A stretch of 64,000 nt of DNA from the NCBI GenBank assembly GCA_003242085.1, contig QBML01000002.1, positions 124,001-188,000 of the forward strand. The letters run 5' to 3'. The stretch is from Pseudanabaena frigida. Its GTDB lineage: Bacteria; Cyanobacteriota; Cyanobacteriia; Pseudanabaenales; Pseudanabaenaceae. Below are positions 16,630-20,145 of this stretch, one piece after another; the stretch's first letter is position 1; each line of letters begins with the position of its first letter. Under the pieces are notes generated by a model. The model searched no databases. It was not told the origin of the DNA and was given only the letters and a program-made list of their open reading frames with translations. The position numbers were made by a program, and so were the translations under genes.

Positions 16630-17418
16630 ATGACAAATATAGATACAGATAGAAATATAAACACAAATTCGCAGACAGGTCTTCAGAAACCAGTTTTAGG
16701 GAAGGTTTATTTAGTTGGTGCAGGACCTGGAGATCCAGGATTAATGACTCTCAAGGGTAAGGCATTATTAGAGACATGCGATGTAGTGCTTTACGATGCA
16801 CTGGTCAGTGATGAAATTTTGGCAATGATCAATCCGATCGCGGAGAAAATCCATGCAGGAAAGCGGCGTGGCAATCACTCATTACTACAGGAGGAAACCA
16901 CTCTGCTATTGATTGAAAAAGCTCAAGAACATGCAATTGTTGTGCGTTTAAAGGGGGGAGATCCATTTATTTTTGGTCGTGGTGGTGAAGAGTTAGCAGA
17001 TTTACAGGCCGCAGGAATTACCGTTGAGGTTGTCCCAGGGATTACATCAGGCATTGCTGCGCCTGCCTATGCAGGGATTCCCCTCACCCATCGTGATTTT
17101 AGTTCGTCAATAATTTTTGTCACTGGTCATGAGTCTTCAGGTAAATATCGTCCTCAGATCAATTGGACAGCGATCGCGCAAGGAGCCGAGACGATTGTTG
17201 TATATATGGGATTACACAATTTAAGTGAAATCGTTACTAAATTAACGTTAGCTGGATTACCTGAATCTACACCTGTAGCTTTAATTCGGCAGGGAACAAG
17301 ATCCGATCAGTCAGAATTAATTGGTTGTTTGGGTAACATCGTCAATTTAGTACAAGACAATGAATTTAAGCCACCAGCGATCGCCGTTATTGGCAATATC
17401 GTTAATTTTCGCAAATAA
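16630..17418 (+). CDS. cobA: Uroporphyrinogen-III C-methyltransferase
   Basis: The 262 residues fit a single-domain SUMT. After an unusual Asn/Thr-rich lead of about 22 residues comes GKVYLVGAGPGDPGL (SAM-binding), then VVLYDALVS, LKGGDPFIFGRGGEE near 110, and VPGITSGIAAPAYAGIPLTHRD near 140. It uses two S-adenosylmethionines to make precorrin-2, the branch point to sirohaem and cobalamin. cobD and cobQ lie 38 kb away in this window. No cobalamin riboswitch is seen upstream. The true start may be a few codons in, because the lead is low-complexity. Confidence 0.93.
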   Translation: MTNIDTDRNINTNSQTGLQKPVLGKVYLVGAGPGDPGLMTLKGKALLETCDVVLYDALVSDEILAMINPIAEKIHAGKRRGNHSLLQEETTLLLIEKAQEHAIVVRLKGGDPFIFGRGGEELADLQAAGITVEVVPGITSGIAAPAYAGIPLTHRDFSSSIIFVTGHESSGKYRPQINWTAIAQGAETIVVYMGLHNLSEIVTKLTLAGLPESTPVALIRQGTRSDQSELIGCLGNIVNLVQDNEFKPPAIAVIGNIVNFRK

Positions 17419-17528
17419 ATAATGTAAATATTACGATGACAGCTTACCTCTCATCATATTTATCTGGGAAACAGATTATAAACACTTGTAACTGAATGTT
17501 AAACTAGACTTTTTGAGGGCAAAAGCTA

Positions 17529-17909
17529 ATGGGAAAAGATGAAATGAGTATTCCTGCCCAAATAGAAAATAATAACCATCGTCTTGAAGTACAAATACAG
17601 GACATCTTAGAAGCGATCGCAGCAGCGGAGTCGTTTGTAGAGGGAATAGATTTTTTAGAGTTTAGTCGCGATCAAAAGACTATTTTTGCGATCGAACGAG
17701 CAATTGGATTGATTGGCGCAACTGCAAAAAGATTACCTATAAGTTTTATGGATCAATATCCACAAATTAACTGGCGACGTTTAACAGGTGTGGGAGATAG
17801 CCTGATGTTTGGTTATTTAGAAGTTGATCTCAATACTTTGTGGGATTTGACGCAGCAAGATGTGCCTTTTATCAAGGATTTAATGAGAAAAGCGATCGCA
17901 AATTTATAA
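17529..17909 (+). CDS. HepT-like (DUF86) protein without the catalytic R and H
   Basis: The 126 residues fit the four-helix HEPN/DUF86 fold: DILEAIAAAESFVEG, AIERAIGLIGATAKRL, and INWRRLTGVGDSLMFGYLEVDL. In HepT toxins the last block reads W-R-x-I-x-G-(M/F)-R-N-x-x-x-H-x-Y-x-x-V-D. Here the arginine position is Gly89 and the histidine position is Phe94, while Tyr96, Val99 and Asp100 remain. So the RX4HXY motif needed for RNase activity, or its tyrosine modification context, is broken. There is no MntA-type nucleotidyltransferase antitoxin next to it; cobA lies 110 bases upstream and a DUF429 gene converges from the other side. It may be an inactivated toxin kept for another role or a relic. 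Confidence 0.75.
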   Translation: MGKDEMSIPAQIENNNHRLEVQIQDILEAIAAAESFVEGIDFLEFSRDQKTIFAIERAIGLIGATAKRLPISFMDQYPQINWRRLTGVGDSLMFGYLEVDLNTLWDLTQQDVPFIKDLMRKAIANL

Positions 17910-17939: not shown

Positions 17940-18749
17940 TTATAAATTGCAAATCCATCCCTCAAGGCAATCGCAGTTTTCGGGTATTCCGTAATTCGAT
18001 TGTCGAGATGCAGATGCAGTTTGAATTGTGGCGAGTATTGCATCTAAAGTGTCACCAGAAGGATCGCGATCGCCTTCTTCGGCAATAAGATTATCGATTT
18101 CTATCGCAAAGCCATATTTTTCTCCTGATATAGGCGATCGCACTTTACTAATAATGTCTTTGCGTAGAAGTTGCATTTCCTGAGTCTGCTTGCGCTTTTC
18201 ATCAGATTTATAGCTTTGCCTACCAATTAAATTTCGGGCAATTAGTGCAGGATAAACTTCGATCGCGATGCGCGGATCGGATGTTGGATGACATGGCAAG
18301 ATACTAAATCCAGCTTTGAGCAATCTCGGTGCACCTTCAAAAAACATTTTGCCAACTGGTACGCCATACACTTTCATCGGGCTGATCGCGCCTGCAATCC
18401 GATCCGTCTGGCGTAAATGTTCGCGATCGCCATTGGCACGGCCTTGACGATATTGATTTAAAGTTTCGACAAATTCCTGCTTAGTCATTTGTCCCACTAA
18501 GTTTACATATTCTGCCCAAGTTTTTCCCCATTGCAAATTCTCGATCAGTTTACGAGGCTGCCCAAGTGGAAAATCTACTCCCGCAATCCAAGATGGCGAT
18601 CTCTGAAGGAAGTCCATAAATGATGGAAAGCTTACAAATTGATGTAACTTCTCAATATTGAGAACATCTGCTTCAAGCCACGCCTCTACACAGGCGATAG
18701 GCTTAGCTCTACTAGGTGCACTCGTAAAATCAATTCCATATACTTTCAT
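17940..18749 (-). CDS. DUF429-like protein
   Basis: Starting at ATG 18749 the product begins MKVYGIDFTSAPS and has 269 residues; a longer start at 18773 would overlap the upstream gene by 23 bases. The opening GIDFT and later AGVDFPLGQPRKL resemble the two acidic nuclease-like strands of DUF429 (RNase H-like fold). Near the end, DPSGDTLDAILATIQTA looks like a conserved acidic DAxxAA block of that family. The ATG comes one base after the stop of the LCP gene (TGAGATG), so translation is probably coupled. Biochemical function is unknown. Confidence 0.7.
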   Translation of the reverse strand: MKVYGIDFTSAPSRAKPIACVEAWLEADVLNIEKLHQFVSFPSFMDFLQRSPSWIAGVDFPLGQPRKLIENLQWGKTWAEYVNLVGQMTKQEFVETLNQYRQGRANGDREHLRQTDRIAGAISPMKVYGVPVGKMFFEGAPRLLKAGFSILPCHPTSDPRIAIEVYPALIARNLIGRQSYKSDEKRKQTQEMQLLRKDIISKVRSPISGEKYGFAIEIDNLIAEEGDRDPSGDTLDAILATIQTASASRQSNYGIPENCDCLEGWICNL

Positions 18750-18750
18750 C

Positions 18751-20145
18751 TCAATTAGCGGCATCTTTGCCAATTACAATCGTGACATCCGATGTAATAT
18801 CGCCAGTTGCAGAAACTTGAACCTGTCCTATCCCTAGTTCATGTTGTACAACTTGAGCAATTTCAGGATTACCTTGTTCTGCGATTACCTGAGTGGTTAG
18901 TAGATCCTCAGTACTCATATTTATATCGCGATCGCTTAGATAAGTGCCATGAAATCCGAGATTTTGAAGTTGACTAATCATTCTGTTAGCGATCGCTAAT
19001 TGTTGGGAATTAGTAACAACTGCAATACGAATCTGACTGCGATTGCTAACTAATCCTTCAAGATTACTTTTACGATCGGCATTGCTTGCTGCTGCTGAAT
19101 CTAATGTCGCGACATCAAAGAACTTACTCAGAATAGCACCAGTAGCATCGGCATCTTCAATCCAATAGCTCAGTGGATATTCAGCAGTGCGGCTAAATCT
19201 TCCAGGCAACATAAACATATGAATGCTTTGGCGCTTAACCTCTGTCAGTAAGTTATAAATTGCCAGCATTTCACCAATTGATAAGTCTGTATCCACATTT
19301 TTTTGGGCGACCTCCAAAATCTTAGGAGCTTTACCAATATTTTCAGGTTGAATGAGTGTGGCAAAGATAGCTTTTAATGCTGATTGCTGTCTCTGTACGC
19401 GACCAATATCACCTAACTCATCGTGCCGAAATCTGACGTATTCTTGTAAGTGCTGACCGTTGAGTTTTTGCTTACCAGATGAGAAATGGATTTGTAATTT
19501 TTGCGATCGATCTACATAATCCATTTGCTTCGGAACGTTAACTTCTATACCTCCCAATGCATCTACCAGTTGAATAAAGCCTTGGGTATCAAGCCTTACA
19601 TAGCGATCGATCTGAATATTATTCAGCAATTGACTGACAGATTCCGCAGCTAAGGCTGTTCCTCCTTGGACGTTAGCATCATTAATTTTATCGATACCTA
19701 TTCCTTTTAAATTAACCAACGTGTCCCTTGGAATTGAAAGAACATTCACCTCATGGGTGTTAGGTAGTAAGCGAACTAAAAGCATTGTGTCAGTATTGCC
19801 TGCCAATGCCGCTTCGCGGTTAATCATATTATTAGGATTAGCACTACCTGAGTTGTCAGTCCCCAATACTAAAATGTTTACAGGTCGATCTAGTTTCGCA
19901 GGGATTATACCCGTAATAGCATCAGTACTATGGGCGAGAGAAGTATGACTGAGAGGCTTACTAGCTAGAATTTTTGCGATCGCTGCCCCAGACAATACAG
20001 AAACGGCAGCAATTGTAATTAAACTGAAAGCTATTTTGACCGATCTATTTAATTGAAGTGATTTAGGAGGAAAATTTACATCATTTGGAATATTTACATT
20101 GCATTCATTTCTTCGATGTTTCTTTTCCACGCTATACCTCCACAC
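18751..20145 (-). CDS. LytR-CpsA-Psr (LCP) family cell-wall polymer transferase
   Basis: The 464 residues have a cytoplasmic lead of about 33 residues, one membrane helix (IAFSLITIAAVSVLSGAAIA), and an external LCP domain with NILVLGTDNSG, TDTMLLVRLLP, NVLSIPRDTLVNL and GIDKINDANVQGG. Later segments include LGGIEVNVPKQMDY and RFRHDELGDIGRVQRQQ. These are the family's pyrophosphate- and lipid-binding residues (Arg and Asp rich). Residues of about 370-460 form a LytR_C domain. LCP enzymes move glycopolymers from undecaprenyl-phosphate to the wall. The divergent neighbour is uppP, also in the undecaprenyl cycle. TM and LytR_C domain are seen; the polymer is not known. Confidence 0.9.
   Translation of the reverse strand: MWRYSVEKKHRRNECNVNIPNDVNFPPKSLQLNRSVKIAFSLITIAAVSVLSGAAIAKILASKPLSHTSLAHSTDAITGIIPAKLDRPVNILVLGTDNSGSANPNNMINREAALAGNTDTMLLVRLLPNTHEVNVLSIPRDTLVNLKGIGIDKINDANVQGGTALAAESVSQLLNNIQIDRYVRLDTQGFIQLVDALGGIEVNVPKQMDYVDRSQKLQIHFSSGKQKLNGQHLQEYVRFRHDELGDIGRVQRQQSALKAIFATLIQPENIGKAPKILEVAQKNVDTDLSIGEMLAIYNLLTEVKRQSIHMFMLPGRFSRTAEYPLSYWIEDADATGAILSKFFDVATLDSAAASNADRKSNLEGLVSNRSQIRIAVVTNSQQLAIANRMISQLQNLGFHGTYLSDRDINMSTEDLLTTQVIAEQGNPEIAQVVQHELGIGQVQVSATGDITSDVTIVIGKDAAN

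Follow-up and report, generated by a model that had tools for sequence, protein, structure and literature searches.

What becomes of a HepT-like protein once the residues of its RNase motif and its antitoxin partner are gone? The question is raised by a gene of Pseudanabaena frigida located in a window of 64,000 nucleotides, the whole stretch of DNA that was analysed. The initial annotation, made from the letters alone, described the product as a HEPN protein in which both catalytic residues of the RX4HXY motif are replaced and next to which no MntA antitoxin is encoded. It offered a domesticated role, an antitoxin-like role or a decaying solitary toxin as interpretations. We consider it probable that the protein is a domesticated, catalytically dead HepT which, having lost its site and its MNT partner, has become a non-catalytic binding or regulatory protein maintained by purifying selection.

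The gene and the predicted fold of its product

The open reading frame (Table 1) is real and encodes a protein of 126 residues, hereafter the pseudo-HEPN, in a genome of 5.39 Mb assembled in 67 contigs (G000). The protein matches the Pfam family HepT-like, PF01934 (E-value 2.2e-17; score 63.3 bits, gathering threshold 23.5), and this is the only Pfam family reported for it. PADLOC and PHROGs returned no family for the protein. A RuvC identity suggested by NCBIfam was dismissed as noise (15.3 bits, where 163 are required). With pI values of 4.25-5.11 the orthologues are acidic, a property that is not conducive to nucleic-acid binding; the canonical domains, however, are about equally acidic (median 4.89).

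The structure predicted by AlphaFold2 on an alignment of 28 sequences (pLDDT 88.1, pTM 0.80) was compared with known structures. HEPN toxins occupied ranks 1-9 in VIA-align; the first eight had Z-scores of 11.0-12.2 and all later rows 8.7 or less, the best match having a Z-score of 12.2 and an rmsd of 2.6 over 112 residues. According to the tool's own note, Z-scores under about 13 may arise by chance for helical bundles, so that it is the margin, together with the sequence match to PF01934, that carries weight. The first eight PDB rows obtained with Foldseek were HEPN toxin chains, the best of them 7ae8, with E-values of 0.045 and above; nothing was found at E ≤ 0.001, and a sequence-profile search of the PDB gave no match. 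The predicted model has the HEPN fold, in line with the sequence match, and the fold that the initial annotation took to be kept is kept in the prediction.

The upstream neighbour, cobA, precedes the gene in 24 of 24 carriers of the same genus, but in other genera it is missing from all six loci, within the roughly 1.5 kb examined, and a DUF429 gene lies within about 1.5 kb at 19 of the 24 same-genus loci. Since the linkage to cobA is confined to the genus, it does not suggest a tetrapyrrole role. Neighbours in other genera include the gene of a PLD-like protein at L024 and an SLH/L,D-transpeptidase gene at L050, each with an apparent homologue in L051. In 10 of the 28 orthologues the element GTTA[A/G]ACT, contained in TGTTAAACTAG in the window, precedes the start by 20-23 bp and may be part of the pseudo-HEPN's own promoter; L013 has it though cobA is about 940 bp away. 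It matches once in the window against 0.04 matches expected, for a pattern picked after being seen. A sigma-70 scan yielded two sites, both on the minus strand and neither of them TGTTAAACTAG, versus 2.3 expected, and a terminator scan yielded none.

Table 1. Features of the pseudo-HEPN locus, in positions of the window
Feature	Position	Strand	Remarks
cobA (uroporphyrinogen-III C-methyltransferase)	16630..17418	+	Upstream neighbour
TGTTAAACTAG, possible -10 element of own promoter	17497..17507	+	Contains GTTA[A/G]ACT
Pseudo-HEPN (HepT-like, PF01934)	17529..17909	+	126 aa; Arg to Gly89, His to Phe94, Glu to Ala64; Tyr96 kept
Region of former RX4HXY motif, residues 88-101, VGDSLMFGYLEVDL	17790..17831	+	Alignment columns and DNA
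DUF429 protein	17940..18773	-	Convergent downstream neighbour; context only

Loss of the catalytic residues

The catalytic columns were read from an alignment of 28 distinct orthologues, which represent 30 of the 31 carrier genomes (all but G035), with 74 canonical HepT-like domains of the host family and the phylum. An HMM whose training sequences all had an intact motif served to collect the canonical rows, of which those below 90 residues or below 70 bits were dropped; given this training, the canonical set could be biased toward motif-bearing rows.

The column of the catalytic Arg contains Gly in all 28 orthologues, versus Arg in 71 and Lys in three of the canonical domains. In the His column, Phe (24) and Tyr (4) stand against His in all 74. 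The two replacements proposed for the window protein are thus borne out by the alignment. A third loss was not mentioned in the initial annotation: the near-universal Glu of the canonical 'IGEA' (Glu in 73, Asp in one) is Ala in 27 orthologues, including that of the window, and Met in one. In PMC3710099, the predicted RNase site of HEPN domains consists of Arg and His, augmented by an acidic residue and by a polar residue after the Arg; we read the 'IGEA' Glu as this acidic residue. The polar residue is retained (Asp in 27 of the 28 orthologues, Glu in one). As had also been stated, the Tyr and the V-D that follows it are kept: Tyr96, invariant in the 74 canonical domains, is found in 26 of 28 orthologues, with Val in its place in L050 and L055, and V99-D100 is present in the window protein.

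An intact Arg/His pair elsewhere in the protein would have overturned this assignment. Among the 28 orthologues no conserved alternative His was found, the best column having His in 15 of 28 sequences, in the N-terminal tail, and an intact or shifted catalytic motif was rejected. The RX4HXY motif of the HepT toxins of MntA-HepT type VII systems is absent from all 28 distinct orthologues. Across these sequences, which come from six genera, 21 columns are invariant; they include the charged residues D48, E56, R57, R68, R83 and D100 as well as Phe73, Gly89 and Leu92.

Distribution, selection and partners

With an identity of at least 50% as the definition, 31 of the 38 host-family genomes, including that of the window, have an orthologue (24 of 26 in the same genus and 7 of 12 in other genera; identity 50-100%). 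No internal stop was found in the 31 orthologues. The Gly/Phe variant is therefore a conserved cyanobacterial clade within one family, and a variant confined to one strain was rejected. The seven family genomes without an orthologue, among them G010, G028 and those of two genera, indicate that the pseudo-HEPN is dispensable in some. Around cobA these seven genomes contain no significant trace of the gene (best E-value 0.65; L168 ends at the contig end). The sole readable empty site is that of G028 (L162, G028:C382), from which the gene is cleanly absent and where about 35 bp separate cobA from DUF429; in G010, a GAF/histidine-kinase gene follows cobA.

Across the phylum, 386 genomes were sampled; of the matches listed from outside the family, the best reached 114 bits and has an intact motif, versus at least 177 bits for the orthologues. 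The matches listed comprise at least 26 loci outside the host family, and R/K-x4-H is intact in 25 of 26, L063 being readable only in its N-terminal part. Plasmid records matched in 92 cases, all below 60% identity, and nine of the ten rows listed are annotated as DUF86. Carriage by phages was rejected, as no phage record matched the pseudo-HEPN and none of 30 viral stretches that matched a search pattern encodes a relative.

Pairwise dN/dS ratios (NG86) were calculated for 22 same-genus sequences, which gave 231 pairs, 186 of them usable. The median was 0.093 and the maximum 0.334. The same script yielded a median of 0.067 for cobA (maximum 0.178) and 0.142 for the DUF429 gene (maximum 0.233), both maxima being exceeded by that of the pseudo-HEPN. 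With a median pS of 0.62 the synonymous sites are strongly diverged and individual values are rough; all of them, however, are well below 1. The pseudo-HEPN is under purifying selection.

These results bear directly on the decaying solitary toxin of the initial annotation. A remnant without present function would be consistent with the loss of the catalytic residues and of the antitoxin and with the dispensability seen in G010, G028 and two genera. Arguing against it are the low dN/dS values, the lack of a stop in any of 31 orthologues, the 21 invariant columns shared by 28 sequences of six genera, and the empty site of G028, which is a clean absence and not a broken gene. Decay is most improbable. 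As most of the family keeps an intact protein despite the lost site and antitoxin, a new job is probable.

The partner was sought at 51 orthologue loci (L009-L059, duplicates included), with about 1.5-4 kb per flank where the contig allows, and no match to an MNT gene was found. The missing MntA neighbour noted for the window is thus a property of all these loci, which lack the adjacent MNT gene of type VII HepT toxins. The state of being unpaired is unremarkable by itself, since toxin genes without a partner are generally common (PMC2701414 and PMC12654330).

Besides the orthologues, the other family genomes contain 74 PF01934 matches, of which 66 are represented in 60 stretches fetched for the canonical HepTs. 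Eight weak or partial matches were left out (G011:C1:4296029, G014:C380, G026:C82, G028:C22, G028:C418, G028:C497, G032:C2 and G037:C178), and the match G024:C2:24010 lies inside the fetched L116 without a hit from the HepT HMM. Applied to the 60 stretches and to seven paralogues of the window genome, this HMM gave 68 matches, 66 of them with [R/K]-x4-H. Of the 68, 66 have a same-strand MNT gene no more than 450 bp away, the exceptions being L131 and one of two matches in L138. Six stretches missed by the HMM (L145, L146, L147, L154, L160 and L161) each contain RNxxxHxY on reading. The two motif-less matches, L117 and L156, are N-terminal pieces of canonical HepT genes broken by stops; they resemble decaying toxins, unlike the pseudo-HEPN.

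In the window genome, the other seven PF01934 genes all have the motif and an adjoining MNT gene. The genome contains eight MNT genes, each beside its own HepT-like gene, which leaves no spare MNT there. The distant mntA that the initial annotation proposed to look for was not found among them, and a hidden MNT acting in trans was rejected for this genome. The eighth MNT gene (L092:1025-1887, G000:C64) is paired with a member of PF20797, HepT-like_2, instead of PF01934. A solitary MNT gene without a HEPN-like neighbour was observed in another carrier, G033 (G033:C1, L169:863-1273), which has the pseudo-HEPN as its sole PF01934 match.

A protein without RX4H might nevertheless inhibit growth, by binding RNA or through a rebuilt active site, and the pseudo-HEPN would then be a lone HEPN that remains toxic or enzymatically active. 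According to PMC3710099, HEPNs that lack the motif came out as toxins in a screen at genome scale, and the six invariant charged residues might serve a new site. This is unlikely in view of the absence of any conserved His, the lack of an MNT match at the orthologue loci and of an unpaired MNT in the window genome, and a near-core distribution unlike that of a toxin module.

The retained Tyr96 invites a further explanation, namely that the protein is controlled by AMPylation of this residue by an MNT enzyme encoded elsewhere in the genome. AMPylation of HepT in S. oneidensis takes place at the equivalent residue, Y104 (PMC7641770), the Tyr is kept in 26 of 28 orthologues, and the single MNT gene of G033 would be a candidate enzyme. 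The Val of L050 and L055 and the pairing of all eight MNT genes of the window genome make such control very unlikely; two carrier genomes have no MNT match at all, but they are just 74% and 77% complete.

The antitoxin-like role of the initial annotation would take the form of a dominant-negative effect, in which the dead HEPN enters mixed dimers and spoils the shared active site of the cell's HEPN toxins. The predicted HEPN-like fold would permit this, and potential targets exist in the seven canonical PF01934 HepTs of the window genome and in other PF01934 matches in 22 of the 31 carriers, the window's genome included. In the remaining nine (G001, G008, G020, G022, G023, G030, G033, G034 and G035), however, five of which are at least 95% complete, the pseudo-HEPN is the sole PF01934 match, which argues against a standing anti-HepT job. 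HEPNs of other families occur in at least five of the nine, with PF05168 beside an MNT gene in four and PF20797 in one, and might be targets instead, but these proteins are only remotely related to the pseudo-HEPN. Moreover, canonical HepTs vary from none to seven per family genome, whereas the pseudo-HEPN is near-core. An antitoxin-like role is thereby weakened and we regard it as unlikely. The interpretation first offered stands as far as the predicted fold, the lost active residues and domestication are concerned.

Proposed history and comparison with known systems

In a maximum-likelihood tree of 102 rows and 105 columns, many forks of which are unresolved, the 28 orthologues form a single clade with support of 100/100. 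This clade joins five canonical HepTs with MNT partners, from other families of cyanobacteria, at a fork with support of 100/95, and the stem amounts to 0.98 changes per column. A single loss of function on the stem is the simplest reading.

It is proposed that the ancestor was a canonical MNT-HEPN (type VII) toxin. The MNT antitoxin and the Glu, Arg and His of the RNase site would have been lost, in the simplest case a single time, prior to the family's diversification; inheritance since then would have been mostly vertical and under purifying selection. With its site gone, the protein would no longer cut RNA. It would be a binding protein of four helices, probably a dimer, with a role in regulation, and its binding face may be built around the clade-invariant Glu56, Arg68, Phe73, Gly89 and Leu92. 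The ligand is perhaps RNA, by HEPN precedent, and a protein or nucleotide partner is equally possible. Only the precedent of inactive HEPNs such as MtlR, for which RNA as ligand is proposed in PMC3710099, favours RNA as the class, and the choice is a guess. The most specific version of this model, in which the toxin turned once into a mostly vertically inherited, non-catalytic RNA- or protein-binding regulator with the old RNase groove and its newly fixed residues (E56, R68, F73, G89, L92) as the binding surface, is put forward tentatively, as one possibility.

If the regulatory reading is correct, the pseudo-HEPNs would constitute a free-standing family of domesticated HEPNs, a kind not found described in the literature searched; no description of the clade was encountered in these mostly non-subscription papers. 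Whether chromosomal toxin relics acquire host functions is often debated. The pseudo-HEPN would provide a clean case of a toxin-antitoxin gene that became a near-core gene after losing the residues of toxicity and the antitoxin, with close intact toxins at hand for comparison. The prediction is specific, in that the protein should have no RNase activity, should still fold and should bind something, and it is testable in culturable Pseudanabaena strains.

Motif-less HEPNs and solitary toxin genes are both already known. Among cyanobacteria, slr7032 of the Synechocystis PCC 6803 plasmid pSYSA (L175:853-1170), given as a stand-alone HEPN (DUF86) in PMC4963859, is likewise a solitary HepT-like gene that lacks the motif. 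Its product lies outside the pseudo-HEPN clade (28% identity, E 3e-4, gapped alignment) and keeps the 'GEA' Glu. At the C-terminus, the region expected to contain the motif does not resemble HepT, and slr7032 is therefore probably a truncated relic. The inactive HEPNs described in PMC3710099, which make up part of the MtlR family or are fused to nucleotidyltransferases, have likewise lost Rx4-6H and were proposed to have a non-catalytic role. By their description they are set apart from the pseudo-HEPN, which is a free-standing PF01934 protein outside any mannitol operon; no mannitol genes are among its neighbours.

With HepT of the MntA-HepT type VII systems (S. oneidensis SO_3166, PDB 5yep; the HEPN of 7ae2/7ae6/7ae8) the pseudo-HEPN shares the family, the predicted fold, W82, Tyr96, W105 and the overall pattern. 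It differs in having no catalytic Glu, Arg and His and no MNT partner that could be found, and in being near-core in one family. Its nearest relatives in the tree are the cyanobacterial HepTs L060, L061, L062, L064 and L065, with which it has D[Q/T][K/R]T...A..RA in common. Unlike the pseudo-HEPN, these five proteins possess an intact RDxxxHxY and the 'GEA' Glu, and all five are encoded next to an MNT gene.
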